Assembly (NCBI RefSeq): GCF_030418315.1
Contig: NZ_JAUHPV010000002.1
Location: forward strand, 1-64,000
DNA length: 64,000 nucleotides
Reading direction: 5' to 3'
Source: Demequina zhanjiangensis
GTDB taxonomy: Bacteria > Actinomycetota > Actinomycetes > Actinomycetales > Demequinaceae
Below, in pieces: positions 7,380 through 21,947 of this stretch (positions within the stretch are counted from its first letter, which is position 1; every line of letters starts with the position of its first letter). Under the pieces are notes generated by a model. That model did not search any database. It was not told the origin of the DNA and saw nothing but the letters and a program-made list of their open reading frames with translations. Both the position numbers and the translations under genes were made by a program.

Positions 7380-8339
7380 TCAGACCGCGTCGAGCACGTC
7401 GATCACGAAGACGAGCGTCGAGTTCGCCGGGATCGACGAGGTCTCCGAGTCGCCGTAGCCGAGCTCCGGCGGCACGATCAGGAGGACCTGCGAGCCCACC
7501 TGCACGCCGGCGAGACCCTCGACCCAGCCCTCGATCAGGTTGTCGGTGGACAGCGGGAACGAGATCGGGACGCCGTTCGCCCACGAGGACTCGACCTCGG
7601 TGCCGTCCCACAGCGACAGCGCGTACTGCACCGTGACGGTCTGCCCCTCCTCGACCTCGGGGCCGTCGCCCTGGATCAGCGTCTGCGCCACGAGCTCGGC
7701 GGGCTCGTCACCCGCGGTGCTCATGTCCACGGACGGGGTGCCGTCCTCGCCGAGCGTCACCGTCGGGAGGCCGTCGGCCGGAGCCACCGCGGTGCCCTCG
7801 GCGCGCAGCGGCGTCACCTTGTCCACCGTGACGCCCATGACGATCGGGCTGCCGGTGGTGTCGAACGAGCCGTACACGATCTGCGCACCCACGTGCGCGC
7901 CGACCAGCTGCTCGTAGAGGGTCGGGTCGAGCAGGCCCTCGGTCACGCTCAGGAGCTCGGTGTAGCCGGTGGCGTAGGTCGAGTTGACGAGCGACCCGTC
8001 GATCCCGCTGTAGATGACGTAGGACACCGAGGCGCCCGTGCCGTCAGCGATCTCCTCGCCGTCGCCGTCCTGAAGCGTCATCGCGCCGGTGTCCTCGAAC
8101 AGCAGGCACGACTCGAACGCGAGCTCGGGGGCACCGTCGGCGCCTTCGTTCCACTCGACGCTCTCGAGCGCGGCGGCCGTCTCCAGCGTCTCCGCATCTG
8201 CGCAGGCGTTCGCGTCGACGGTCGCACCAGCGGTGGCCGACGCCGTCGCGTCCGGCTCGTCCGAGCTGGTGCAGGCGCTCAGACCGAGCGCGCCGATGGC
8301 CAGGACTGCCGCGGCTGCGGCAGAGCGTCGTACATTCAC
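7380..8339 (-). CDS. FKBP-type peptidyl-prolyl cis-trans isomerase lipoprotein
   Basis: A 319-residue secreted lipoprotein. A short basic start, hydrophobic segment and lipobox LSAC place the lipidated Cys at about residue 23, so it is anchored outside the membrane. The C-terminal ~100 residues are a canonical FKBP domain (GQTVTVQYALSLWDGTEVES, LIEGWVEGL, LLIVPPELGYG, LVFVIDVL). A more divergent FKBP-like region precedes it (VSYVIYSGIDG, then LVGAHVGAQIV), so it is probably a tandem FKBP. It should assist folding of exported proteins. The GTG at 8339 was chosen because GGAGA lies 7 nt upstream and it gives a proper signal peptide; longer readings do not. Confidence 0.88.
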   Translation of the reverse strand: MNVRRSAAAAAVLAIGALGLSACTSSDEPDATASATAGATVDANACADAETLETAAALESVEWNEGADGAPELAFESCLLFEDTGAMTLQDGDGEEIADGTGASVSYVIYSGIDGSLVNSTYATGYTELLSVTEGLLDPTLYEQLVGAHVGAQIVYGSFDTTGSPIVMGVTVDKVTPLRAEGTAVAPADGLPTVTLGEDGTPSVDMSTAGDEPAELVAQTLIQGDGPEVEEGQTVTVQYALSLWDGTEVESSWANGVPISFPLSTDNLIEGWVEGLAGVQVGSQVLLIVPPELGYGDSETSSIPANSTLVFVIDVLDAV

Positions 8340-8627
8340 GTGGATTCTCCGTGGGTCGGGTGTGGCGGCGGGCCGGTCTCGGCAGCGCACGCGCTCCAGA
8401 ACGTGTTCCAGCGTACGCGTCGCACCAGATGCCCAGGGACACGACCCTGCCATGACAACCTCCGAGAACGCGCAGAGGTTCCCTGCGAGAGGCGTTCGCC
8501 ACACCGGCAGAACCGTTTCATGCCGGACACGGCTCCGAAACACCCCCACAACACATCGGCTTTACCGTTCTTTGAAGACTGGCGGTGGACCCTCCGCCCA
8601 CGGCCCGCCTCGAAGGGAGGTGAGCAG
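8340..8627. other. Divergent intergenic region between FKBP and GH92 operons
   Basis: 288 nt without a supported gene. It must carry both divergent promoters. GTTTC at 8514-8518 and GAAAC at 8536-8540 form a spaced inverted pair ahead of the GH92 operon, and GGGAGGTGA at 8614-8622 is the strong GH92 ribosome-binding site. I could not assign a clear -35/-10 pair. Confidence 0.4.
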
Positions 8628-10844
8628 ATGCTTGAGCACATCGACCCGTTCAACGGGACCGAGGTGACGGATCTGCCCGCGCCCTCGAGGCTCGCGGCGA
8701 CCTGGTGGTGGCCCAAGCCGCAGGTGGGGAACACGCATCCCGGCGCCTCGCATCCGCTGGGCATGGTGTCGGCCTGCGCGTACTCCGGCGCGTACCCGAC
8801 CGGCTACGGCCTGTACGACCTGTCGACTGAAGGCGTGCCCGAGCGGGTCCACGACTCCTACGTCGCTTCCGGCTTCACCCACTTCCAGCAGTCCGGCACC
8901 GGCGCGATCCGCAAGTACTACAACTACTTCCGCGTGACGCCGATGCTCGAGCCGCTCGACGCGCTCGGACGCACCTTCGCCCTCACCGACGAGGAGGCGT
9001 CGCCCGGGTACTACGCCACGACGCTGGACAACGGCGTGCGTGCCGAGATCACCGTCGGCCCCAAGTCCGCCGTGCATCGCTACACGTTCCCCGAGCACAA
9101 GGACGCGCGCATCGTCGTGGACCTGTCCATGGGCGGGCTCACGATCCCGTACTCGGCGACGGTCCCGCTGCGCGCCTACCTCGAGTCGCTCGCGCCCGGC
9201 CAGGCGCAGGGCGAGATCGTCGTCGAAGGCGCCCCGCTGTCCGTCTACCTCGAGTGCGACGCCCTCTCGTGGCGCCAGATGCTCTGGTACGACCGCCGCC
9301 TCATGCCTGCCGGCGCACGGCTCGACCTGGACCACATCCGCCCGACGACGCTGCGCCCCTTCGGCCTCATGTGGGCCGGGCCGTCGCTCGCCGGCCAGAC
9401 GATCGAGCTGCGCATGGGGTTCTCCCTGCGCGGCGTGGACCAGGCCCGCGAGAACCTCCGCAAGGACTGCGGCACCGGCCACGACCGCTTCGACAAGCGG
9501 CTCGCCTCCACCCGCTCCGCATGGACCGACATCGTGGACGGCATCCACATCGAGACCGAGTCCGATGCACGCCGGGAGGTCTTCTACACGGCGCTCTACC
9601 ACTCGCTGATCAAGCCGTCCTTCGCGCGCGACGAGTCGCCGTTCTGGTCCGCGAACGGGCCCTTCGCGTATGACATCTCCACCATGTGGGACATCTACCG
9701 CACGCAGCTTCCCCTCCTCACGGCGCTCCAGCCAGGCAAGGCGATCGAGCTCGCGAACGCGCTGCTCACCATCAGCGAGCAGGAGGGCAACCTCCCCATC
9801 GGCTACCGCATGGCGCGCGGCTCGGACCGCTTCTCCCGCCAGGCATCCGCATTGGCCCACACGTTCCTCGCGGACCTCTGCCAGCTCGACATCCCCGGCA
9901 TCGACTGGGACTGGGCGCTCGTCAACATGCAGGCCGACCTGCGCCGCACCTACGGCGAGGACTACCTGCTCACCGGGCGTGCGCACCCGATCTCCCACAC
10001 GCTCGACCTCGCCTTCGGCTACTGGTGCACCGCCAGAGTCGCCGACAGGGTCGAGGACGCACCTCTCGTGAAGGAGCTCACGTCGCTCGCCGTCCGCTGG
10101 CGCAACGCCTTCGGGGACGACGGGCTGCTGCTCGACTCCAACTTCTACGAGGGCACCAAGTACAACTACTCGTTCCGCCTCCTTCACGACATGGCCGCGC
10201 ACATCGCCGACGCGGGTGGCGACGACGCGTTCGTCGCGATGCTCGACAGGTTCTTCGGCTTCGGCGCCGCGCCGGTCACGCAGCCCGGCGTCGCCCCCTC
10301 GCCGGAGGAGATGGACGCCGGCTACGCGCTCGGCCGCTTCGAGGGGCTCAACAACGAGCCCGACATGGAGGCGCCCTGGGCCTATCACTACGCGGGCCGG
10401 CCCGACCGTACGGCCGAGGTGGTCCACGACGTCGTCCACCAGCAGTTCGGCCGGGGTCGCGGAGGCCTCCCTGGGAACGACGACTCCGGAGGCCTCAGCT
10501 CCTGGTACGTGTGGGCGAGCCTCGGATTGTTCCCCGTCGCCGGCCAGAACGTCTTCCTGCTGCACCCGCCGTCGTTCGCGGGAGCCACGATCCAGATGTC
10601 CCGTGGCCGCCTCACGATCGAGACCGACGGCTTCGTCGAGCCCGTCCCCGGCGGTCCCGTGCAGCACGTCCAGTCCGTCACCTTCGACGGCGAGCCCGTG
10701 CCGTCCTGGATCGACGGCACCCGCCTCCACGCCGGAGGCACCCTGCGCTTCGTACTCGGCGACCAGCCGAGCACGTGGGGCACCGACGAGCGTCCGCCGT
10801 CGATGCCAGACCCCGTCGCGACACCCGTCTCGACATCCCCCTGA
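8628..10844 (+). CDS. GH92 family glycoside hydrolase (alpha-mannosidase-like)
   Basis: The 738-residue protein has the two-domain GH92 pattern: an N-terminal beta-sandwich (VNTHPGASHPLGMVSACAYS-type start) and a C-terminal (alpha/alpha) domain with YHSLIKPSF, STMWDIYRTQLPLL and the family hallmark GNDDSGGLSSWYVWASLGLFPV near residues 620-640. GH92 enzymes are Ca2+-dependent exo-alpha-mannosidases that invert configuration. No signal peptide is present, so it is probably cytoplasmic, unlike many secreted family members. The start is supported by GGGAGGTGA; the frame is open far upstream but that part lies over the FKBP gene and is not coding. A glycosyltransferase follows after 38 nt in the same operon. 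Confidence 0.88.
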   Translation: MLEHIDPFNGTEVTDLPAPSRLAATWWWPKPQVGNTHPGASHPLGMVSACAYSGAYPTGYGLYDLSTEGVPERVHDSYVASGFTHFQQSGTGAIRKYYNYFRVTPMLEPLDALGRTFALTDEEASPGYYATTLDNGVRAEITVGPKSAVHRYTFPEHKDARIVVDLSMGGLTIPYSATVPLRAYLESLAPGQAQGEIVVEGAPLSVYLECDALSWRQMLWYDRRLMPAGARLDLDHIRPTTLRPFGLMWAGPSLAGQTIELRMGFSLRGVDQARENLRKDCGTGHDRFDKRLASTRSAWTDIVDGIHIETESDARREVFYTALYHSLIKPSFARDESPFWSANGPFAYDISTMWDIYRTQLPLLTALQPGKAIELANALLTISEQEGNLPIGYRMARGSDRFSRQASALAHTFLADLCQLDIPGIDWDWALVNMQADLRRTYGEDYLLTGRAHPISHTLDLAFGYWCTARVADRVEDAPLVKELTSLAVRWRNAFGDDGLLLDSNFYEGTKYNYSFRLLHDMAAHIADAGGDDAFVAMLDRFFGFGAAPVTQPGVAPSPEEMDAGYALGRFEGLNNEPDMEAPWAYHYAGRPDRTAEVVHDVVHQQFGRGRGGLPGNDDSGGLSSWYVWASLGLFPVAGQNVFLLHPPSFAGATIQMSRGRLTIETDGFVEPVPGGPVQHVQSVTFDGEPVPSWIDGTRLHAGGTLRFVLGDQPSTWGTDERPPSMPDPVATPVSTSP

Positions 10845-10882
10845 GGCCCACTGCCAGCCCCTCACCTTCCAAGGAGGCAGCC

Positions 10883-12202
10883 ATGAACATCGAGATCAAC
10901 CGACGCCTGGTCATCGTCGTCCGAGCCGATCCGGTGATCTGCGGTCATAGCGGCGAGGCGCGCAACCTCGCCGAGGTCGCCCTCACCCGCGGTTTCGACG
11001 ATGTGCGCATCGTGACGTGGCCGCTGGACCGTCTTGAGGAGACGGGACTGCCGCTCAAGCCTCTGGATACCGTCCTGCCCTACTCCCCCGGGATCACCGT
11101 GGAGAGGCCTGCCCCGGTCGGCGGGTACAAGATCCCCGACGGCCGCTATCTCGCGGGCGTGGTGGGTCGGCTGGTCGAGCTCTTCACCGACGGTGTGCCC
11201 ACCGTGGCGCTGTCGCTGTACCTGCACCCGCACACCACCGCGGTGGCGCAGGCGGTGCGCATCGCGCGAGCGAGCGGCCTGCCGACGAACGTCACCACCA
11301 TCGCCGAGGCGGTCGGCTCGGACATCACGGACGTGGTCCGCTCGGCCGTGGAGCATGGTGAGTTCGGTGCGGCAGCCGCAGTGCTCAGCGACTACCTGAG
11401 CCAGGACCGGTGCGTCGCGGTGTCCGAGTACACCAAGCAGGTCATCGTCGAGTCGGCCGCCGAGCTCGACGCGATGTACGGCACGGCCTTCGCCGCCCAG
11501 TGCGAGGAGCGCGTCACGATCTCCTACCCGGCGATCGACACGTCCGCCTACCTCGCGCTCGACGCCACCGAGACCGATCGCTACCTCGCCGCCCGCGGGC
11601 TCGAGCGCGGTCACTATGTGCTCTACCTCTCGCGCCTGCAGAAGGCCAAGGGCGTCGACGACCTGATCCGCGGGTTCGCAGCCTCCGAGGCGTGCCGCAC
11701 CCAGCAGCTCGTGATCGCCGGCCGCGGACCCGACCTGGACTTCTTCAAGTCGGTGGCCGAGCGTACCTCCGCGAGCGACCGCATCCACTTCCTCGAGGAC
11801 GTGGGCGACGAGGAGAAGCCGCACCTCATGGCCGCCTGCTCGGCATATGCGCTTCCGTCGAAGCCGGCACCCGAGTTCACCGAGACGTTCGGGATCGCGC
11901 TCGTGGAGAAGATGCTCGCCGGTGGCGGCCCCGTCATCACGTGCGACACCGGAGGGATCCTCGAGGCCGTCGGTGACACCGCCGTCGTCGTGCCCTCCGG
12001 GGACGCCTCCGCGCTCACCGTGGCCCTCAACGCCTGCGCCGGAGGACTCGACGCCGCCGACCGCGAATGGTGGCAGAGCCGGGCACGCGAGCACGCCATG
12101 CAGTTCGACCGCGTGAACGTGTTCGATCGCCTCTTCACCGGACTCGTCGGCGACTCACCCGAGCTGCCGCTCACCGCGAACGTGAGCCGCGTGAAGGTCT
12201 GA
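10883..12202 (+). CDS. GT4-family glycosyltransferase
   Basis: A 439-residue GT-B glycosyltransferase. The C-terminal half has the nucleotide-sugar binding features of GT4: YVLYLSRLQKAKGVDDLIRGF, QLVIAGRGPDL, and the E-x7-E motif in ETFGIALVE followed by GPVITCDTGG. The N-terminal acceptor domain is unusual (VICGHSGEARNLAEVALTRG). AAGGAGG lies 6 nt before the ATG at 10883. It follows the GH92 gene by 38 nt and shares its terminator, so both probably work on the same mannose-containing glycan or glycoside; donor and acceptor cannot be inferred. Cytoplasmic, no membrane segments. Confidence 0.82.
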   Translation: MNIEINRRLVIVVRADPVICGHSGEARNLAEVALTRGFDDVRIVTWPLDRLEETGLPLKPLDTVLPYSPGITVERPAPVGGYKIPDGRYLAGVVGRLVELFTDGVPTVALSLYLHPHTTAVAQAVRIARASGLPTNVTTIAEAVGSDITDVVRSAVEHGEFGAAAAVLSDYLSQDRCVAVSEYTKQVIVESAAELDAMYGTAFAAQCEERVTISYPAIDTSAYLALDATETDRYLAARGLERGHYVLYLSRLQKAKGVDDLIRGFAASEACRTQQLVIAGRGPDLDFFKSVAERTSASDRIHFLEDVGDEEKPHLMAACSAYALPSKPAPEFTETFGIALVEKMLAGGGPVITCDTGGILEAVGDTAVVVPSGDASALTVALNACAGGLDAADREWWQSRAREHAMQFDRVNVFDRLFTGLVGDSPELPLTANVSRVKV

Positions 12203-12277: not shown

Positions 12278-13339
12278 TCAGGCGGACGCGCGGCGACGCG
12301 CCAGGATCTGCTCGAGAGAGCCGGAGGCAGCCGGACGCTCCTCCGCCACGGGCTGCTCCTCAGCCTTCCCGTAGCGCTCGTCCGCCCAGCGCTGCGCGAC
12401 CGCAGCAGCACGCGTGTAGTCGTCCTCGTCGATCGGACGGGCCTGACGCTGACGCACGGTCGGCTTGAGGGTGTAGGCCGGAGCGGGCATCGCCTGCGGG
12501 CTCCAGCCGGCCTCGTCCTCGTCGTCCGCGAAGGCGTCGCCGTCGATGATCGAGCTCGCCTGCGGGATCGAGCCCGTGGTGGCGGCCTCCTGCGCCTCGG
12601 CGCGCGCGGCAGGGCGCTCGACCTTCGGGGAGGGCGCCGTCAGCGGCGCGAGGTTCTCGGTGGTCACCACCTTGATGGCCTGAGTCTCCAGGTCCGACGG
12701 CATGCTCTCCTCACCACGCGACCGGTCACGGCTCACGCGACGCAGCGCCTGAGTGGCGGTCGCGGCAGCCTCGACCTCTCGCGCGACTGCGAGCACGTGC
12801 GAATCAGCCTTGCGCTGCGCGTGCGCGGTGCGCGCGCCGACGACGACGAGCCCCGCGAAACCGGCGGACACGATCGCTGCGACGACGGCGGGGAACGCAG
12901 TCGCCGCGACGACGATCCACGCGACGACGCTCAGGGCTCCGGCGGAGGCGGTCACGCGGGCACGGCGACGCGCCTGAGCCCTACGCTCCGCGAGGATCGC
13001 AGCACGGTCACGACGCATCGACAGACGCTCGCGCTGCGCGAGGGTCGCGGCACGGTCCAGCGGCGTGGCCGGACGTGACACGTGCGAGGCTCCGAGCGCA
13101 GCCACCGAGGCGCGCGCCTCGCCCGTGACGAGAAGCGGAACCTCTCCTGACGTGGATCCCGTGGCCTGACGGGCGGTCTCGACGCGGGCGGCGGTCGCCT
13201 TGACGACCCGCATGTCCGCGGAGAAACGGTCCTCGGTACGGACGAGCGCGTACTCCGCGCGCTCGCGAGCCCGCTGCGGGATCACGTACGCGAGCATCAT
13301 GCCGAGCGCGACGATCGCGAGGAGTCCGACAGGGGTCAT
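12278..13339 (-). CDS. Membrane protein with coiled-coil region, GlpR-like candidate
   Basis: A 353-residue protein with an N-terminal membrane helix (MTPVGLLAIVALGMMLAYVIP), a charged helical segment (residues ~22-150, rich in Arg/Ala/Glu), a two-helix hydrophobic hairpin near 155-200 (LSVVAWIVVAATAFPAVVAAI, then GFAGLVVVG), and a long disordered C-terminus. I recognise no enzyme domain. It lies next to a GNAT gene and a MoeA-like gene. In Corynebacteriales a gephyrin/MoeA-like division protein (Glp) works with a membrane receptor (GlpR); this gene is a candidate counterpart by topology and position only. TACCGT 6 nt before the ATG suggests a leaderless mRNA. Confidence 0.6.
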   Translation of the reverse strand: MTPVGLLAIVALGMMLAYVIPQRARERAEYALVRTEDRFSADMRVVKATAARVETARQATGSTSGEVPLLVTGEARASVAALGASHVSRPATPLDRAATLAQRERLSMRRDRAAILAERRAQARRRARVTASAGALSVVAWIVVAATAFPAVVAAIVSAGFAGLVVVGARTAHAQRKADSHVLAVAREVEAAATATQALRRVSRDRSRGEESMPSDLETQAIKVVTTENLAPLTAPSPKVERPAARAEAQEAATTGSIPQASSIIDGDAFADDEDEAGWSPQAMPAPAYTLKPTVRQRQARPIDEDDYTRAAAVAQRWADERYGKAEEQPVAEERPAASGSLEQILARRRASA

Positions 13340-13391
13340 GTGACGACGGTAGGGCCGCACGCCGCCCGGTGCCGGGACCACCGTCGGCGTG

Positions 13392-13973
13392 TCAGGACTG
13401 GGGGCGTGTCCAGGTGTGCCATGGGCGCGGTTCCTGCGCCGTCAGCGCGAAGACGCGGTGGTCACGCCACGCTCCGTCGATGTACAGGTAGCTGCGCCGC
13501 AGACCCTCGTCACGGAACCCCACCTTGCGCGCGACGCGGATGCTGGGCACGTTGTCGGGACGCATCGCGATCTCGAGCCTGTGCAGCCCTTGCGCGTACG
13601 CGTAGTCGGCGGCCAGGGTGACGGCGCGGGGGGCGATCCCCTCGCCCGCGCGATGCTCGGACACCCAGTAGCCGATCGAGCCTCCGCACTCGGGACCCCA
13701 GGTGATGCCCGTGACGCTCACGCGACCCACGAGGGCGCCCTCGACCTCGATCGCCATCGGGTACGCGGTCGCACGGCGCCACTCGCGGGCCTCACGACGC
13801 ACCATCTCGCCGAACGTGATCGCACGGCTCGTCTGCCCCGGCGGCGCAGTGGCCTCCCACGGTCGCAGCCACTCGCGGTTGCGGTCACGGAGGGCGAGCC
13901 ATTCGCGCTCGTCGCGTCGGCGCAGCCGTCGCAGCACGATCCCGTCGCGGAACAGCCTCAGCTCGGTCGCCAC
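13392..13973 (-). CDS. GNAT family N-acetyltransferase (RimJ/RimL type)
   Basis: A 193-residue RimJ-like acetyltransferase. It starts ATELRLFRDGIVLRRLRRRDE, has the acetyl-CoA pocket around GYWVSEHRAGEGIAPRAVTL and ends with the typical HRLEIAMRPDNVPSIRVARKVGFRDEG segment in pieces. These enzymes acetylate N-terminal or small-molecule amines; the target is unknown. The GTG at 13973 lies one base after the MoeA-like stop codon, with GGGAG 7 nt upstream, so translation is coupled to that gene. A longer start would overlap the MoeA-like gene and was rejected. Confidence 0.85.
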   Translation of the reverse strand: MATELRLFRDGIVLRRLRRRDEREWLALRDRNREWLRPWEATAPPGQTSRAITFGEMVRREAREWRRATAYPMAIEVEGALVGRVSVTGITWGPECGGSIGYWVSEHRAGEGIAPRAVTLAADYAYAQGLHRLEIAMRPDNVPSIRVARKVGFRDEGLRRSYLYIDGAWRDHRVFALTAQEPRPWHTWTRPQS

Positions 13974-13974
13974 G

Positions 13975-15195
13975 TCACCGCTCCCACGGGTGGCATTCCA
14001 CGAACGCCTCGCGCTGCAGGGAGGTCGCGTGCTCGGCGACGAGGAGGAGCGCATCCGACGCTGCGACATCCGCGAGGGTCATCGCGGCAGGATCGCCGAC
14101 CGGCTCCGCCCACGGCACGTCGCCGTGCGGGATCAGCCGGACCGCCACGGCCTGCGCGAGACCGGCGGGCGAGTCGATCGCCTGGGTCAGGCGCGCCCTC
14201 ACCATGCCGACGGAGCGCTCGCGACCGCTCATCGCGAGCAGCGTCTGGCGCACATACGCCTGGAAGGCGACGGCGGCCGCAGGCGGCCGGCCAGGGAGCG
14301 CGATGACGGGCACACGGCGCCCGCCCCCGGCGTCGAGGAAGCCGAAACCATGGTGGCCGCCGGGCCGCAGCGCGAGGTCGACGACCTCGAACTCCCCTCG
14401 CTGCGCGAGCACGTCGGGAAGCGTCTCCTCGCGGCCTCCCGAGAGGCCTCCGCTCGTGAGGATCACGTCAGCGCGCACCAGCTGGTCCTCGAGGGTCGCT
14501 GCGAGCCGCATCCTGTCGTCGGGCACCGGGCCGACCCGGTAGGCGTTCGCGCCGGCGTCGCGCGCCATCGCGGCGAGCATGTGCCCGTTCGACTCGGCGA
14601 CGCCACCGCGGGCGTCACCCGGCTCGAAGAGCTCCGATCCGACGGACACCACGACGACGCGCGGCGTGGGGTGGACGAGCAGGCGGGGCCGACCGAGCGC
14701 GGCCGCCACGGCGAGCTGGCGCGCGCCGATCCGAGTTCCCGCGGGCACCAGCACGCGCCCCGGGGCGAGCTCCGAGCCGGCGGGGCGGACGTTCTCCCCC
14801 ACCGCGACCGGGAAGGTCACCGTGACGCGGGCGACACCCCCGTCGGTCATCGAGACGGGGACCACAGCGTCGGCGCCCTCGGGCAGCGGAGCACCCGAGC
14901 CGAGCCGTGCCGCGGTGCGCGCGATGTGCCTCCGGGGCGCTCTGGCCTCGACGCTCACATCGTGCGAGACCATCAGGGTGACGGGCTCACCCGGCGAGGC
15001 CTGCGCGACGTCGTCTGCTCGGACCGCGTAGCCCTCGCAGCTCGCGACGGCGTGGGCCGGCACCGGAATCTCGGCGACAAGGTCCTCCGCGAGCGTCGCG
15101 CCAGGCGCGTCGGCGATGAGGACGTCCAGGTCGGGGACGGGCTCCAGCGACTCGGCAACGATGCGGCGATGCTCGGCGAGAGTCCTGGAGATCAT
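13975..15195 (-). CDS. Molybdopterin molybdotransferase MoeA-like protein, possibly Glp-type
   Basis: A 406-residue protein of the MoeA/gephyrin E family with the normal domain order: domain I/II (IADAPGATLAEDLVAEIPVPA), the MoCF-binding domain III (PRVVVVSVGSELFEPG, then RVGPVPDD) and C-terminal domain IV. Several active-site motifs deviate: the usual SAMDGYA is ASCEGYA, the usual GGVSVGDYD is GGLSGGREE, and PGNPVS is PGRPPA. No other molybdenum-cofactor gene is nearby. Family knowledge: a MoeA-like paralogue (Glp) binds FtsZ in corynebacteria. The ATG at 15195 follows GACAAT by 6 nt, suggesting a leaderless start. MoeA family certain; catalytic role doubtful. Confidence 0.8.
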   Translation of the reverse strand: MISRTLAEHRRIVAESLEPVPDLDVLIADAPGATLAEDLVAEIPVPAHAVASCEGYAVRADDVAQASPGEPVTLMVSHDVSVEARAPRRHIARTAARLGSGAPLPEGADAVVPVSMTDGGVARVTVTFPVAVGENVRPAGSELAPGRVLVPAGTRIGARQLAVAAALGRPRLLVHPTPRVVVVSVGSELFEPGDARGGVAESNGHMLAAMARDAGANAYRVGPVPDDRMRLAATLEDQLVRADVILTSGGLSGGREETLPDVLAQRGEFEVVDLALRPGGHHGFGFLDAGGGRRVPVIALPGRPPAAAVAFQAYVRQTLLAMSGRERSVGMVRARLTQAIDSPAGLAQAVAVRLIPHGDVPWAEPVGDPAAMTLADVAASDALLLVAEHATSLQREAFVECHPWER

Positions 15196-15304
15196 GGCTG
15201 CATTGTCCCGGGCTGCGGGGAGGCGGCGCAACGCTTGACACCGCGAGTCCGGACCGCGGCCGCGTGTCACAAAGCGGTAACGCGGATATGCCACGATGGT
15301 TCAC

Positions 15305-15934
15305 ATGACGCAGAAGTCCTCGCCTTCGTCGAGCACGCTTGAGCCGGAGGATGCGAAGGCAAGCCTCCGCACGAGCCTCCGGAAGGCACGCACGCATCGC
15401 TCGGAGCGCCGTATCGCCGAGCACGCGGAGTCGCTTCGGGACCTGGTCATGGCCATCCCCACCGTCGGCGGGGCATCGTGCGTATCGGTCTACGCGTCAC
15501 GCCCCCACGAGCCCGGCACCGGGCCGCTGATCCAGGCGCTCCACGAGCACGGGGTGAAGGTGATGATCCCGTTGCTCGGCGACGGGCTCCAGCGAGGGTG
15601 GGCCTGGTACAAGGGCGTCGACGATCTGATCGAGAGGGCCCCTGGCCGGCCCCCCGAGCCCTCGGGCGACTTCCTGCCGTTCGACACGATCGCACGCGCC
15701 GAGGTCGTCGTGGTGCCCGCGCTCGCCGTGGACACCGGGGGCATGCGCCTCGGTCAAGGAGGCGGCTGGTACGACCGGGCGCTCCCGCAGGCCTCACCCG
15801 GGGTCCCCTTCATCGCGCTGGTCTATGACGACGAGCTGTTCGACGCTGACGGGGCGCCGCTGCCCCGCGAGGCGCACGACGTGGGGGTGCAGACCGTCGT
15901 CACCCCGTCGCGAGTGCTTCACCTGCCTGCCTGA
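15305..15934 (+). CDS. 5-formyltetrahydrofolate cyclo-ligase (MTHFS)
   Basis: A 209-residue enzyme converting 5-formyl-THF to 5,10-methenyl-THF with ATP. The family signature is RLGQGGGWYDRAL near the C-terminal third, with the N-terminal KASLRTSLRKAR helix. It is divergent from the MoeA-like gene with ~110 nt between them, an arrangement common in actinobacteria. The ATG at 15305 is preferred to 15296 because a CACGAT box ends 7 nt upstream of it and would overlap the earlier ATG; both are in frame. Cytoplasmic one-carbon metabolism. Confidence 0.88.
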   Translation: MTQKSSPSSSTLEPEDAKASLRTSLRKARTHRSERRIAEHAESLRDLVMAIPTVGGASCVSVYASRPHEPGTGPLIQALHEHGVKVMIPLLGDGLQRGWAWYKGVDDLIERAPGRPPEPSGDFLPFDTIARAEVVVVPALAVDTGGMRLGQGGGWYDRALPQASPGVPFIALVYDDELFDADGAPLPREAHDVGVQTVVTPSRVLHLPA

Positions 15935-16257: not shown

Positions 16258-19200
16258 TCACCAGTGAGGCGGGCGATCCCCACGGATCTCGTCATCACGG
16301 CTCTGCCCTGAACGCGAGCCGCCCCAGCCCTCCTCCTCGTCCTCCCACGCACGCGTGGGGATCAGCGGACGCTCGGCACCCCGCGCAGCACTCGGCTCCG
16401 GGACGCCGGCAGGCTTGGTCGGCTCATCCTTCACGTCCTCCGCCTTCGGGAGCGCCACCGCGAGCTTCGGCACGCCGAAGCCCATCGCGGGAACCGGCTT
16501 CGGCTCGGGAGCGGGCTCCGGCTCAGCCTCGGGCTCAGCGCCAGCCTCCTCGACCTCTTCGGGCTCCTCGGCCGACTCGGCAGAGGGGGCGGAGGGTGCC
16601 GACGCAGCGGACTCGGCCGACTCGGCAGAGGGAGCAGTCTCGGCAGAGGGGGCAGTCTCGGGAGAGGGAGCAGTCTCGGGAGAGAGCGTGGACGGCGCGG
16701 ACAGCGCGAGCTCCGGCTGCACGACCTCTGCGGTCTCCTCTGGCGAGAGAGCCGACGGCGCCGACCCTGCCGACGGCGCCGACTCCTCCTCACGCGCCAC
16801 AGCGTCGTCACCCGGCTCCTCCGCGGAAGCGGCCGAGACAGCGGACTTCGCCGACGCGGCCGACGCCGGCTGCGACACGAGCATGGGCCCGATGCCGAGC
16901 GTGAGCGGAGCCTGCTCCGGCTCCGCCTCGTCGTCGGCATCCACCGGCTCCGGCTCCACGCGCAGCTCCGGCACCGCGCCCGTGACGAGCGGTTCGTCGT
17001 CGGTCAGCTCGTCGGGCTCCGCGAGCGTCACCTGCTCGACGTCGAGATCGAAGACGTCCTGACCGGGGATCTCCTCCGCCCCCTCGTCGGGAGTCTCGGC
17101 GCTCGGCGTCGGCGCGAGCACGGACGGCGCGAGGTGCGGCAGGGAGATCGACGCGGTGACAGCGGGCGCCTCGGTGACGTCGAGCGCGTCACGCACGTAC
17201 TTGGCGGCGGCCTCAGGATCCATGAACACGTCGAGCGTCCACAGCGGCAGCACCGTCCAACCGAGCGCCTCGAGCCGGGTGCGCTGCCAGCGGACCCGGT
17301 CGCGCAGGCTCGCGTTCATGCGCGTCGAGGCCTCGTCCGTGACGACCGCGAGACGGAAGCCCTCGTCGTCGCCGAGGCCGACCACCATCGGGATCGCCTC
17401 GGACCCTGAGCCGTAGCGCAGCCGCACCTGGCAGCCCAGACGACGCAGCCGTGCAGCGATGTCGGCAAGCAGCCAGTCGGTGGGGGCCGGCTCTGGCCGC
17501 TCGGCCGCGACGGCGGCACCCGACGCCGCGACGAGCAGCTCGCGCAGCATGTCGACGCCGTGCCCTGGTGTCGAGCGCTCGGCGATGGGCTCCAGCTGGC
17601 CGGGCGTGAGCGCGCTGAAGACCCAGGTGCGCTCCTTTCCGGCGACGAGCGCCTGGGTGAGCGCGTGGGCGCCACCCTGCTCGCTGAGCACCCCGAGTCG
17701 ACGCGGAACCTCGCCGCGCGCGTCGCGCGCCCAGCCCCAGCTGAGCACGACGTCGTCGGCCGAGTAGCCGGCGGCATCGCCGAGACCCACCACAGGGATG
17801 CGTGCGGCAAGCCGAGGGTCGCGCTCCTCGAGCGCCTCACGGAGCTTGAGCGCATGCAGGTCGTTGCCCGCGACGACCAGCACGGTGCGTCGGGGGATGC
17901 TGTCGGCGGTGCGTGCGAGGTGCTCCACCACGGTGGAGACCTCCGCATGCGTGGTCTCCACCTCGAGCATCCCTGCCACCGGCGTGCCGACGGCGTCGAG
18001 CAGCTGGACCGCGAGCGACTCGGGCTCTCCCGCGGCGGGGAGCCCGGACAGCGAACGCCCGTACACGTGCTCCTGGAGCACGCCCGTCACACGCGGATCG
18101 CGCGGCTGCGGGAGCGCAGGCAGCGTGGCCTGCGGGAGGAGCGAGGCGAGCGTCGCGACCGCGGAGCGTGTGGCCGTGTGCGCGTCGCCGAGCACCACCA
18201 CCTGCTTCGCGCGTGCGATCGCCGGCACGAGCTCCGCGAGCGCGAGCGACTCGGAGGCGACAACGACGAGCACGTCGAGGACGCGCGCGGCGGGCATGAG
18301 ACGCGACACCTGCTCGGCACGCACGAGGCTGACCGGCCGCAGGGCGGAGACGAGCGGTTGGAAGTCCCGCCACAGGTCACGGTACGGGGCGGCAGATCCC
18401 TCGACGAGGAGCGCGAAGAGGTCACGCGCCATCTCGGGGTGACGGGCGATGGCCGCTCTGCGGCGCTCCGCCGCCGCGCGCATGAGGGGCTGCACGCGGG
18501 AGGAGGAGAACTCGCGATCGCGCTTCTCGAAGTCGTGGACGGCGTCGGCGAGCGCGCCGTACTGGGTGAGGCGCGAGTCGGCTTGCACGATCGCGTCGAA
18601 GGCGGCGGCCCACCACGCGAACTCGAGGTCAGTGCGCACCTGGGCCGCGTCGGGCTCGCGCTCCTGGAGGCTCTCGAGGAGCGGGCCGAAGCCTGCCTCC
18701 TCGAGGTCGACGCCGAGCGGTGTCTGGTCGACCTGCTCGATCGCCGCAGTGAGCCCGCCGGCGAGGCGCTCGAGCACCGAGGTCATGCGCTCCCACGACT
18801 GCGAGGGCAGGTCCTGCTCACCGCTGACCTGCGCGACCGCGTCCGCGATGACACCCCACGCCTCGCCCGCCTGGTCGAGCCGGGAACCGTACAGGTCGTA
18901 GTCGTCGGGGACCACAGGCCAGCCACCCGCGGAGCAGTGGGCGCGCCAGCGGACCGAGACGTCGTGCGCGGTCAGCAGCTGCTCGTGGAGCCGCTCCTTG
19001 CCGCGCCCGGGGCGCAGCAGCTCGACGGCTCGCCGCATGAGCGCCTTGCGCTCCCGCCGCGGCAGCTGGACGTGGCGCGGCGACCCGTCGGGGGCGGTCG
19101 CGGCGACGAGGTCGTGGAGGGAACGGTGGAAGACCGCCGGCGAGAACACCTCGAGGGTGTCGCGGATGTCCTCGAACAGCCGCACCTGGTCGGCCCAGGT

Positions 19201-20760
19201 GGTGAGGTCCGGAGCCTCGTCGACTCCGGTCTCGTGGGCTGCGGTCGCTGCCTCGACGCGCATCCTCGGGAGGTGACGGGTGAGGAGCGCCGCGAGGGCG
19301 TCGTCGAAGGTCGCCCCCTGCTCGGCGGAGTCGGTGACGTCACGCCACCAGGCGTCGCGGGGGCTCTCCTGCTCGCGCGCGGCCTCACCGAACGCGTCGG
19401 GGTCGTCAGGCTGCTCTCCGGACACCTGGAGGTGGAGCGCTGCGGCGACGGCCGCGAATCCGCGCTCGGCGACGAGCAGGCCTGCGTCGGGACCCAGTCG
19501 CACCCGGGTGGCGGGCTGCGGCTCGCCGGTCGTGAGGCGCACGAGCGCCTGCACCGCCTCGAAGGCGCTCACGCCCCACGGACGGTGCACGCGGTGCAGG
19601 GCGTCGAAGCGGGCATGCAGCCGGTACCGGGCGGTGAGGAGGTCCTCGCCCTGGCTCCTGAGCACGTCGTCGTCCACCTTCGGCGAGCCGAGAGTGATGG
19701 CCTCGAGGAGCTTCGCACGAGCCTCCGTGTTCCAGGCCTCCACCGCGGCGTCGATGGCGAGCTCGGCGATCCCGAGCTCCTCCATCCGCTGGTGGATGCT
19801 GTGGAGCATGCTCTCCTGGCCGGCGACGACGCCCACGATCCGCCCGGAGGCGGCGCCGTCGGCTGCGATCGCGGCGGCCATCCCGACGCTGTCGGCGCCG
19901 GGCGGGGACTGCAGGAAGACGTGGCGCCCCGTGGCGATGAGGTCGAGCGCCGCGAACTGGGCGTCGTCCAGATCCCCCAGCCCACGCTCGGCGAACGGGT
20001 CCCTGTCCCCGACGGGGAAGGCAGGAAGCGGGAGCGCGAGCGACCCGGTGGCGTCCTGATCGCCCGAGGCCGCGACGAGCACATCGCTGGCGGCGATCAC
20101 GGGGTCCAGCTCGTCGAGGTCGTCGAGGAGCCGCTGCTCAGGGTCGTCGAAGACGCCGAGGACGAGGCGCTCGGGTGCCTCGAGCTCCTCGCCAAACAGG
20201 TCGGTGCGCTCGAGCACGGCCTCCCACAGGGGGCGCGGGTCGAACTCGCTTCCGGAGGAGACCAGCGGGAGGGTGCGGGCGATCGTCTCCTCGTCGCCGC
20301 GTGCACGCATCTCGGCGGCGAACACAGGGTTGACGCGCACGTCGTCCAGGAGGGTGAGGACGATGTCGCCGTCGCGGCCCGGCTCGAGGGTCACGGGCCG
20401 CAGCAGGAGGGGCAGCTCGCGGCGGTGACCCACCTCGTCCCAGGCGACGGTGCCGATGCCGAGCTCGGCGGTCCACGCGCCTGTCGCGGCGTGCACCTTG
20501 AGCGCTTCGGCGAGCATGCGTCGCGCGCGCGTGAGCGCTTCCGTGCGCGCCTCGCCTTCGCGGATGAGCTGGCTCAGCGGGGTGGGTCGGCCAGCGAAGA
20601 GGGGCGCGAGGCCGCCGGGGTGCGCGGAACGCAGGTCGATGAGGGAGCCGGCCACGCCGGAGAGATCTCGAAGTCCGGACTCGGCGTTGTGCTGGCGCAG
20701 CTGCTCGCGCCATTCGCGTAGGGCGTCCGCCACGAGGGCGCGTCCGATGTAGTCCGTCAC
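16258..20760 (-). CDS. Giant degenerate helicase-like protein with C-terminal REase-like domain and repetitive tail
   Basis: A 1500-residue protein. Residues 1-~1200 show the layout of large actinobacterial DUF4011/SF1-helicase-like proteins: an N-terminal domain (REWREQLRQHNAESGLRDLSG), and near 265-300 a Q-motif/P-loop-like segment in which the P-loop reads SPPGADSVGM, lacking the GKT/S needed for ATP binding. Near 1120-1200 a compact segment (RLAVVTDEAS, then RDRVRWQRTRLEALGWTVLPLW) resembles the Vsr/MTES_1575 restriction-endonuclease-like fold. The last ~275 residues are Ala/Ser/Pro/Glu low complexity. The GTG at 20760 was chosen because homologue-like sequence begins MTDYIGRALV; GGGGG precedes it. 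Role unknown, possibly DNA binding or defence. Confidence 0.72.
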   Translation of the reverse strand: MTDYIGRALVADALREWREQLRQHNAESGLRDLSGVAGSLIDLRSAHPGGLAPLFAGRPTPLSQLIREGEARTEALTRARRMLAEALKVHAATGAWTAELGIGTVAWDEVGHRRELPLLLRPVTLEPGRDGDIVLTLLDDVRVNPVFAAEMRARGDEETIARTLPLVSSGSEFDPRPLWEAVLERTDLFGEELEAPERLVLGVFDDPEQRLLDDLDELDPVIAASDVLVAASGDQDATGSLALPLPAFPVGDRDPFAERGLGDLDDAQFAALDLIATGRHVFLQSPPGADSVGMAAAIAADGAASGRIVGVVAGQESMLHSIHQRMEELGIAELAIDAAVEAWNTEARAKLLEAITLGSPKVDDDVLRSQGEDLLTARYRLHARFDALHRVHRPWGVSAFEAVQALVRLTTGEPQPATRVRLGPDAGLLVAERGFAAVAAALHLQVSGEQPDDPDAFGEAAREQESPRDAWWRDVTDSAEQGATFDDALAALLTRHLPRMRVEAATAAHETGVDEAPDLTTWADQVRLFEDIRDTLEVFSPAVFHRSLHDLVAATAPDGSPRHVQLPRRERKALMRRAVELLRPGRGKERLHEQLLTAHDVSVRWRAHCSAGGWPVVPDDYDLYGSRLDQAGEAWGVIADAVAQVSGEQDLPSQSWERMTSVLERLAGGLTAAIEQVDQTPLGVDLEEAGFGPLLESLQEREPDAAQVRTDLEFAWWAAAFDAIVQADSRLTQYGALADAVHDFEKRDREFSSSRVQPLMRAAAERRRAAIARHPEMARDLFALLVEGSAAPYRDLWRDFQPLVSALRPVSLVRAEQVSRLMPAARVLDVLVVVASESLALAELVPAIARAKQVVVLGDAHTATRSAVATLASLLPQATLPALPQPRDPRVTGVLQEHVYGRSLSGLPAAGEPESLAVQLLDAVGTPVAGMLEVETTHAEVSTVVEHLARTADSIPRRTVLVVAGNDLHALKLREALEERDPRLAARIPVVGLGDAAGYSADDVVLSWGWARDARGEVPRRLGVLSEQGGAHALTQALVAGKERTWVFSALTPGQLEPIAERSTPGHGVDMLRELLVAASGAAVAAERPEPAPTDWLLADIAARLRRLGCQVRLRYGSGSEAIPMVVGLGDDEGFRLAVVTDEASTRMNASLRDRVRWQRTRLEALGWTVLPLWTLDVFMDPEAAAKYVRDALDVTEAPAVTASISLPHLAPSVLAPTPSAETPDEGAEEIPGQDVFDLDVEQVTLAEPDELTDDEPLVTGAVPELRVEPEPVDADDEAEPEQAPLTLGIGPMLVSQPASAASAKSAVSAASAEEPGDDAVAREEESAPSAGSAPSALSPEETAEVVQPELALSAPSTLSPETAPSPETAPSAETAPSAESAESAASAPSAPSAESAEEPEEVEEAGAEPEAEPEPAPEPKPVPAMGFGVPKLAVALPKAEDVKDEPTKPAGVPEPSAARGAERPLIPTRAWEDEEEGWGGSRSGQSRDDEIRGDRPPHW
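16567..16700. repeat. Short tandem repeats encoding a Ser-Ala-Glu-rich tail
   Basis: Variants of a 15-18-nt unit (for example GCAGTCTCGGGAGAGGGA) recur inside the helicase-like gene and encode SAES/APSAET/APSPET variants. Such DNA can expand or contract by slippage, so length variation between strains is expected. Confidence 0.7.
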
Positions 20761-21046
20761 GCCCCCAGCGTAGGAACTGTGCGCGCGAGACGCCTCCCGC
20801 CACGCCGCCCGGGAGCCCACGCCTGCCTCAAAGGTGCTGGAACCTGGGACTTTCGGGGGCCACGAGGATTCGGACGATGCGCGCCCACTTGTACAGCCGA
20901 CGCGCACCGTCGAGGTTGATTGTGGCGCTCGGCGATCGGGCCCGTCAATTTCGGTTCTGGAAAGGCGCAGAACGCCCACGGATCGCCGCTCGAGCACCAG
21001 GGCGGATCCCGCGTCGGCCCAGGGCGGGCGCCGGTGGCACAGACAG
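20761..21046. other. Intergenic region upstream of the giant protein
   Basis: About 290 nt without a supported gene. Apart from the promoter candidate at 20919-20948 I see no structure here that I can name. Confidence 0.4.
20919..20948 (-). promoter_or_regulatory. Sigma-70-like promoter candidate
   Basis: On the minus strand TTGACG and CACAAT are separated by 18 bp, about 160 nt upstream of the giant gene's GTG. It is the best -35/-10 match in this gap, and the transcript would have a long leader. Confidence 0.45.
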
Positions 21047-21092
21047 GGGCGCCGGTCGGTCCGCAGGGAGAACAGCGGTCCGACCGGCGCCC
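21047..21092 (-). terminator. Terminator hairpin after the serine protease
   Basis: An 18-bp stem with one mismatch (GGGCGCCGGTCGGTCCGC with 21075-21092) and a 10-nt loop, ending 22 nt past the protease stop. No U tract. Confidence 0.6.
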
Positions 21093-21113
21093 TGCCGGCT
21101 CTGATGCCGTCGA

Positions 21114-21947
21114 TCAGCTCACGAACTGCGCGAGGAACGCGAGATCGTCGGGCTGATCGATGCGGTAGCCGCCGCCTGTGCCGGAGCACGTGGCGTTGAG
21201 GCCGTAGGAGGTGACGGCGGCGATGGTCGTGGTGCCTGCGACGAAGATCGGGCCGCCCGAGTCACCCGAGCAGGTGCCGCCGCCCGACGCGTTGTTGGTG
21301 AAGAGCACGGCGTTGCCCGCCTTCTTCTCACCGAACGCGGCGTCGGCGTTGATGATCTTGACCGACGCGGTCAGGCGGGTGAGCGACGCCTCCGTGAGGC
21401 CCGTCTGGGCCGGAAGCGAGCGCTGCAGGCCGTAGCCGACGGGCGTGAACGTCGTCGTCTTCTTGCCGCCGGGCGCGAGGAGTGCGTCGAACAGGCCCTG
21501 CTCAGGGAGCGTGCCGTACTCGTCGAGGTAGACGGGCTCGTCCAGCACCACGACGCCGAGGTCGTGGAGGTAGAAGGCGGCGTCGTCGTACTCCGGGTGC
21601 GTGTACGGCGAGCCCTCGACGGACAGGTCGGTCCCAGGCTCGAGCACCTCGTCACCGAACGGGTAGCCGTAGGTGGCACGGTCGTTGACGTCCTCGTGGA
21701 ACCAGATCGTCACCGACTCGGCTCCGTAGGTGCAGTGTCCTGCGGTGACATAGACGGTCGGGGACACAAGGGTGCCGGAGCAGCGCCAGGCGGGCCCGTT
21801 CGCGTCGTCGGCGACCATGAGGCCGACGTAGGGGTGAGCGCCGTCGTCGGGCTCCCCGTTCTTGATGGCGGCGGCCGGGACGGCGAGGGCTGCGGTGAGC
21901 ATGACCGCGGCCGAGGCCGACACGAGTGCTTTCAGGGTGCTGCGCAT
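21114..21947 (-). CDS. Secreted trypsin-like serine protease
   Basis: A 277-residue S1-family protease with a Sec signal peptide (MRSTLKALVSASAAVMLTAA, cleavage probably after the AVPAAA segment). The catalytic triad is visible: His71 in TAGHC, Asp129 in HDLGVVVLD and Ser230 in GDSGGP. Cysteines flanking the His and Ser suggest disulfides. The ATG at 21947 is preceded by GGAGGATTC; the longer reading has no signal peptide. It is monocistronic with its own hairpin. Extracellular; substrate unknown. Confidence 0.9.
   Translation of the reverse strand: MRSTLKALVSASAAVMLTAALAVPAAAIKNGEPDDGAHPYVGLMVADDANGPAWRCSGTLVSPTVYVTAGHCTYGAESVTIWFHEDVNDRATYGYPFGDEVLEPGTDLSVEGSPYTHPEYDDAAFYLHDLGVVVLDEPVYLDEYGTLPEQGLFDALLAPGGKKTTTFTPVGYGLQRSLPAQTGLTEASLTRLTASVKIINADAAFGEKKAGNAVLFTNNASGGGTCSGDSGGPIFVAGTTTIAAVTSYGLNATCSGTGGGYRIDQPDDLAFLAQFVS

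Follow-up and report, generated by a model that had tools for sequence, protein, structure and literature searches.

A Glp/GlpR-type locus in Demequina zhanjiangensis and the occurrence of GlpR genes without an adjacent Glp

Introduction

Does a MoeA-like gene that lies next to a gene for a membrane protein belong to molybdenum cofactor (Moco) synthesis or to cell division? The question is raised by a stretch of 64,000 nucleotides from the actinobacterium Demequina zhanjiangensis (NCBI RefSeq assembly GCF_030418315.1, contig NZ_JAUHPV010000002.1, positions 1 to 64,000), here called the window. Three genes on its minus strand are transcribed in the order glp, GNAT acetyltransferase and glpR. 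The first (13975..15195, stop included) encodes a MoeA/gephyrin-like protein of 406 amino acids, identified by Pfam, NCBIfam and PDB matches, a tree and an AlphaFold2 model. The last (12278..13339, stop included) encodes a protein of 353 amino acids that was assigned to the SepX/GlpR family by NCBIfam SepX_GlpR_2, a profile of its relatives and hydropathy. The original prediction, made from the sequence alone, had listed a MoeA-like protein, a GNAT and a membrane protein in this order and on this strand, as they are found, and had proposed that the locus is the counterpart, outside Corynebacteriales, of the Glp/GlpR division module. That proposal is supported by the tree, by the best NCBIfam and PDB scores and by the conservation of the locus. 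By sequence, the Demequina locus is probably an orthologue of the actinobacterial Glp/GlpR (SepX) divisome module, from which we infer its function in division. Counterparts outside Corynebacteriales have already been published (PMC10522489), so the locus is of a known kind and its identity was to be expected. It is of interest for the features in which it deviates and because GlpR appears to be independent of Glp.

The MoeA-like Protein Groups With Glp

The window protein matches Pfam MoeA_N (3.7e-31), MoCF_biosynth (6.3e-23) and MoeA_C (1.3e-5). Its best NCBIfam model is Glp_gephyrin (NF045515) with 345 bits, and MoeA_actino gives 300 bits (cut-off 560). The best match in the PDB is Glp of Corynebacterium glutamicum (8bve, 6e-49), 8bve and 8bvf being the top entries, and the AlphaFold2 model predicts the MoeA fold with high confidence (mean pLDDT 95.1). 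In a tree of 75 rows a single branch with support 99/96 separates 38 Glp rows, that of the window included, from 37 MoeA rows, and this split was recovered in 97% of 200 bootstrap trees. This tree has nine rows that a first tree did not have and lacks five of the rows in that tree, namely L198 and four Glp from Demequinaceae. Rows L193, L201 and L203 were classed as Glp because they are the best Glp matches of their own genomes and have GlpR downstream; f21 rows, which resemble 8bve, are labeled mycobacterial-type here. A phylogeny against Glp and true MoeA had been proposed as a check of the original prediction, and the window protein falls on the Glp side; it neither clusters with catalytic MoeA nor is the sole MoeA of its genome. 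Orthology by descent is supported by these comparisons of sequence, a claim that does not extend to FtsZ binding.

The short frames of family f37 (mostly genomes of 1.2–1.4 Mb), which are mostly 304–345 amino acids long, begin to match Glp only at about residue 140 and look as though a MoeA or Glp had been deprived of its N-terminal part.

Active Site and Molybdenum Pathway

Conservation was followed in 80 named loci that were found by their Glp, 14 from Demequinaceae and 66 others, to which the window is additional. With E. coli MoeA numbering, positions 59, 100 and 142 are D, T and D in 29/29 MoeA rows and E, S and E in the window Glp, while position 259 is D in 22 MoeA rows, E in the other 7, and E in the window. 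Altered active-site motifs had been noted in the original prediction, and these four changes bear that out. Seven of the eight positions checked are uniform in all 29 MoeA rows. E188, D228, P298 and P301 are retained in the window Glp, and three of its four changes are D to E. T100 is replaced by S in 15/15 Demequinaceae rows and 54/66 other named Glp-locus rows. Hinge 2 reads HPTPRV in the window, and P-x-P-R at this place is found in 15/15 Demequinaceae, 65/66 other named loci and 7/7 mycobacterial-type rows, compared with 4/29 MoeA rows. Hinge 1 (EPVPDL in the window) has at least two Pro in 12/15 Demequinaceae but also in 21/29 MoeA rows, a cut that does not discriminate.

The same genome encodes a canonical MoeA (L004:7450-8622, contig C12), which scores higher with MoeA_actino than with Glp_gephyrin; a search for such a second MoeA had been suggested with the original prediction. 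It belongs to a Moco cluster together with a ThiF-family protein, MoaC, MoaA and a MogA/MoaB-like protein. By eye only, MoaE and a modABC-like set were also recognized there. When the genome was searched for PF00994, MoaA and MoaC, no match other than glp was found in the window, all others lying on different contigs. The original statement that there are no other molybdenum genes is thus correct for the window, as far as these three were searched.

MoaA is above its cut-off in 37 of 43 Demequinaceae genomes, always with at least 363 bits. In the other six (G071, G099, G155, G176, G179, G180) it remains under the cut-off with 21–57 bits, and MoaC was likewise not found (11 of 14 control genomes reach the MoaC cut-off). 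All six retain GlpR. Five of them retain Glp as the only PF00994 match and so have no second canonical MoeA; the Glp of G155 is divergent, with 40% identity to that of the window. These Moco-less Demequina offer a natural background in which service of Glp in the usual molybdenum pathway is precluded.

Topology and Charge of GlpR

The best-scoring NCBIfam model for the window GlpR is SepX_GlpR_2 (NF050099; 2.2e-4, 21 bits). A profile of GlpR relatives, which includes the window row, recovers the protein at 3.7e-89. A single-sequence search with it reaches Actinotalea (L128, 1.1e-24; L070, 4.8e-19), and the L070 protein itself matches NF050099 at 1.2e-21. SepX is the Streptomyces form of GlpR, and NCBIfam has models for both Glp and SepX/GlpR.

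Three transmembrane segments (TM) are predicted in the window GlpR, TM1 near residues 1–24 and a TM2-TM3 block near 127–172. SepX of Streptomyces venezuelae likewise has three transmembrane segments and two cytoplasmic regions (PMC8748795). Of the 77 GlpR of the named loci, 76 have a segment at the N-terminus and another hydrophobic block, and two show a further segment; the sole exception is a short frame. The AlphaFold2 model (mean pLDDT 70.9, pTM 0.45) has helices at residues 93–147 and 151–207 with pLDDT of about 90 and is largely low elsewhere. A long charged helical hairpin through the membrane is thereby predicted for residues 93–207 (12719..13063, minus strand), with basic ends of isoelectric point (pI) 12.0 (residues 93–127) and 11.3 (172–207). 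The original prediction had described a membrane protein with a charged helical region, adjoining on the same strand; its N-terminal hydrophobic segment and the strongly basic cytoplasmic ends of the hairpin agree with that description.

The first cytoplasmic loop has a pI of 11.6 and the tail a pI of 5.1. In C. glutamicum GlpR the intrinsically disordered regions IDR1 and IDR2 have pI values of 4.05 and 10.87 (PMC10522489). The pI of the first loop is above 9 in 74/76 named GlpR and 4.05–4.9 in the five mycobacterial-type GlpR compared; being basic in one lineage and acidic in the other, the loop has its charge reversed between them. Tail pI is below 7 in 45/76 named GlpR and above 9 in 17/76, as well as in three of the five mycobacterial-type proteins.

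The FtsZ-Binding Loop and Other Points Against the Identification

Several observations weigh against reading the locus as a Glp/GlpR module, including the loop residues described in this section and the missing glp genes described in the next. Neither window protein reaches the curated NCBIfam cut-off (345 vs. 475 bits for Glp, 21 vs. 150 for GlpR), so NF045515 and NF050099 alone would not name the Demequina proteins. By Foldseek E-value 8bvf and 8bve come first, yet plant Cnx1E has the better TM-score (up to 0.81 vs. 0.72–0.76). The predicted monomer thus does not decide between the open arrangement of Glp and a closed one. The absence of MoaA from six genomes was judged by a strict cut-off; of 14 well-known control genomes only 7 reach it.

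In C. glutamicum, Glp (Cgl0883) and GlpR (Cgl0885) are the orthologous MoeA-like and three-TM proteins of the same kind of locus, and the Demequina system shares with theirs a Pro-rich hinge 2, a changed molybdenum site and the L-x-V-P-x-F contacts of the FtsZ tail (PMC10522489). It differs in the hairpin of domain IV, which is shorter and lacks the Tyr. The FtsZ-binding loop of C. glutamicum spans Met361 to Tyr369, a signature drawn on Corynebacteriales (PMC10522489). Its equivalent in the window Glp was placed by alignments and secondary structure at residues 347–365 (14101..14157, minus strand). Met361 corresponds to Ile here, and no Tyr was found in the loop in any of the 15 Demequinaceae Glp (window and 14 named). 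Tyr is present within the stretch in 60/66 other named loci, irrespective of its exact position there (that in L134 differs), and the stricter Gly-Tyr in 53/66. Of a further 20 Demequinaceae rows, partly from the same genomes, just one (L040) has a Tyr within these limits, and its position is a different one. The absence of the loop Tyr across Demequinaceae is a newly described detail. If the first strand is used to anchor the shorter hairpin, a Trp of the window protein and of three close relatives can be aligned to the Tyr; Trp362 may be a stand-in, with MAFFT setting it one column later.

FtsZ of the same genome ends in VDELDVPDFLR and retains the published contact residues, and FtsZ, SepF and a DivIVA-family protein are encoded near each other on contig C16. 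Judged by sequence, the FtsZ peptide is kept while its putative reader, the Glp loop, has changed. The Tyr-less loop, set beside this retained C-terminus, makes the contact between Glp and FtsZ the weakest step in Demequinaceae, and that it occurs there is doubtful.

Distribution of Glp and GlpR

Fourteen of the 80 named loci have a Glp at least 50% identical to that of the window, and all are from Demequinaceae (13 Demequina and one metagenome-assembled genome). The 5-formyltetrahydrofolate cyclo-ligase (MTHFS) gene, which in the window lies at 15296..15934 on the plus strand, is a neighbor in 79/80 named loci, and GNAT in 74/80. GlpR is present in 77/80 (48 by single-sequence search); it was not found in named loci L079, where the contig ends, L127 and L135. 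By profile search GlpR is present in all 43 Demequinaceae genomes. In 41 of them the Glp and GlpR matches are on one contig and strand, 603–699 bases apart, which indicates that the adjacency is more than chance. The two others, G176 and G177, have no Glp at the locus and retain GlpR. A galU-like nucleotidyltransferase gene (L227:1057-1974) occupies the expected glp site in G177.

At the level of the order there is a GlpR match in 125 of 149 genomes, and in 107 it has E <= 3.4e-10. No Glp-like match lies upstream on the same strand within 9 kb in 41 of these 107, among the matches listed; the count takes one GlpR row per genome, drops the 18 weaker ones and relies on a Glp search limited to 12 scored candidates in each genome. 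Some of the 41 (e.g., G087) may be due to contig breaks. The 31 loci that were inspected (L232-L242, L252-L271) come from families f4, f6, f9, f11, f12, f14, f16 and f19, and Glp was not found in any of their stretches. In 29 of them GNAT and GlpR are no more than about 0.6 kb apart, and 29 have GNAT as well as MTHFS. The exceptions are L241, in which GNAT is 4.5 kb off and MTHFS is not in the stretch, and L261, which has neither. GNAT thus stays near GlpR in 29 of 31 loci where Glp does not.

Among the matches listed for the Glp query there is none from 11 of the 31 genomes, which are five each of f4 and f19 plus G145; for G145 and G148 this follows by subtraction. In seven others (f9 g9 and f12) 9 of the 12 MoeA-like matches were placed in the tree, all of them with MoeA. 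G140, G112 and G062 have Glp-like matches on other contigs, and in these glp may have moved rather than been lost. Since G176, G177 and many genomes outside Demequinaceae have GlpR with no Glp at the locus, Glp is not obligatory for GlpR. Its retention in 41 of 43 Demequinaceae, five of them without Moco, indicates that it still does something.

In the published account glp and glpr, where present, are found together (PMC10522489). According to the methods of that study, searches for GlpR, which is very divergent, were supplemented by conserved gene contexts that include MoeA, so a GlpR without a MoeA neighbor could be missed. The GlpR genes without an adjacent Glp-like gene suggest that the published co-occurrence does not hold throughout. 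This distribution, less expected than the identity of the locus, suggests that the receptor GlpR outlives its gephyrin-like partner, which hints at a further partner of SepX/GlpR.

A Conserved Motif in the GlpR Tail

The tail of the window GlpR contains the motif WSPQAMPAPAY at residues 279–289 (12473..12505, minus strand). In an alignment of 40 rows P287 and Y289 are invariant, and W279, P281 and P285 are conserved in at least 90%. The strict form W-x-P-x3-P-x-P-x-Y is present in 59 of 78 GlpR (the window and the 77 of the named loci) and in none of 200 shuffles of all 78. It is intact in 15/15 Demequinaceae and extends from Demequina to Streptomycetaceae (Embleya, L134), whose GlpR passes SepX_GlpR_2 (203 bits, cut-off 150), unlike that of Demequina, which is far below. 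In the mycobacterial-type GlpR compared the motif was not found, and a conserved stretch of the type VLEIDDEDPxFxHL, unlike the Demequina motif, is present instead.

Of the 31 GlpR whose loci have no Glp, 24 have the motif intact. The remaining seven are five of f4, one of them cut by a contig end, and two of f19, one cut by a contig end and one altered. The two Demequinaceae without Glp give no pattern, with His for the motif Tyr in G177 and the Tyr kept in G176. Conservation for Glp alone is unlikely for a motif that outlasts Glp, and on this sequence evidence the motif probably serves another partner. The candidate role of the motif as the Glp-binding site is weakened by the 24 intact cases. 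No description of the motif was seen among the search results and the openly accessible main-text passages on GlpR or SepX that were covered. Its 11 residues are a defined handle for seeking a further partner of SepX/GlpR. A C-terminal element, LEQILARRRASA (residues 342–353; 12281..12316, minus strand), was recognized by eye and has a similar form in many GlpR.

Proposed Mechanism and Alternatives

In the likeliest mechanism, which is the published one, GlpR would be a three-TM protein that provides a docking platform at the septum by means of a helical stalk in the cytoplasm and flexible tails. Glp would descend from a molybdotransferase and have been retained as a dimeric scaffold, attaching to GlpR by its domain IV and linking GlpR to the Z-ring. 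The septal location and the Glp-GlpR, Glp-FtsZ and GlpR-DivIVA contacts are presumed from work on C. glutamicum; orthology, synteny, predicted topology, changed MoeA residues, Glp in Moco-less genomes and the presence of FtsZ, SepF and DivIVA are the evidence from Demequina. The reuse of a MoeA fold as scaffold for a membrane receptor recalls gephyrin and GlyR, by analogy only; gephyrin keeps its enzyme activity, and Glp probably does not (PMC11733289).

The retained active-site residues, the D to E character of three of the changes, the E at position 259 in 7/29 MoeA rows and the confidently predicted MoeA fold would also suit a second molybdotransferase, still catalytic or shifted in its substrate. 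The tree, the locus and the five genomes that keep Glp without MoaA and MoaC make this very improbable, and identity as a catalytic MoeA is rejected on the grounds of the tree, the locus and the genomes without the Moco pathway. It is also improbable, if slightly less so, that the adjacency reflects inherited gene order only and that the Demequinaceae pair has no role in division. The order is old and is shared with a folate gene, and the loop Tyr has been lost, as that explanation would have it; GlpR is nonetheless present in all 43 genomes of the family, the tail motif is intact in all 15 proteins, and a septal position of SepX and GlpR is published for two lineages distant from each other (PMC8748795, PMC10522489).

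A stronger competitor, though its chances seem a little less than even, takes GlpR (SepX) with GNAT as the working core in the order. Glp would be an optional adaptor, drifting from FtsZ in Demequinaceae, and GlpR would be held by another partner through the tail motif. This would account for the 41/107 genomes without a Glp-like match upstream, among the matches listed, for the Glp-less loci that keep GNAT and MTHFS (29/31) and the tail motif (24/31), for the 11/31 genomes without a match to the Glp query, again among those listed, for the clustering with MoeA of all MoeA-like matches placed from seven other genomes (9/12), and for the lack of the loop Tyr in 15/15 Demequinaceae. It is opposed by the retention of Glp in nearly all Demequinaceae (41/43), including the five without Moco, and by the Glp-like matches of G140, G112 and G062, which may be moved Glp. 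Moreover, the tree does not cover the remaining MoeA-like matches of the f6 and f11 genomes, and the mycobacterial-type GlpR compared and the f4 GlpR are without the motif. Tentatively, then, GlpR/SepX could be the heart of the locus in the order, bound by another partner at the tail motif (and perhaps at the C-terminal LxxILxRRR element), with Glp as a repeatedly lost adaptor.

The main text of the SepX study contains neither "moeA" nor "gephyrin" and puts its emphasis on DynB (PMC8748795). No paper on cell division in Demequina was seen, as judged by titles and abstracts.

Neighboring Genes

The GNAT gene (13392..13973, minus strand) has a GTG start directly after the glp stop. Its RimJ-like product matches Pfam Acetyltransf_3 (3.1e-18), and the nearest NCBIfam model is the RimJ-type PRK10809 (2.1e-17, under the cut-off of the model). 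The cyclo-ligase (Pfam, 5.5e-30) is encoded by a divergent gene, which runs opposite to the other three; it is a conserved neighbor that we do not assign to the division module. Beside the locus, at 7383-12202, are genes for an FKBP-type isomerase, a GH92 family glycosidase and a GT1-type glycosyltransferase. On its other side a very long frame (16258-21189, minus strand) encodes a REase_MTES_1575 domain, a DUF4011 match under the cut-off and a tail rich in Ser, Ala and Glu; part of its length matches the PADLOC candidate model PDC-S37.

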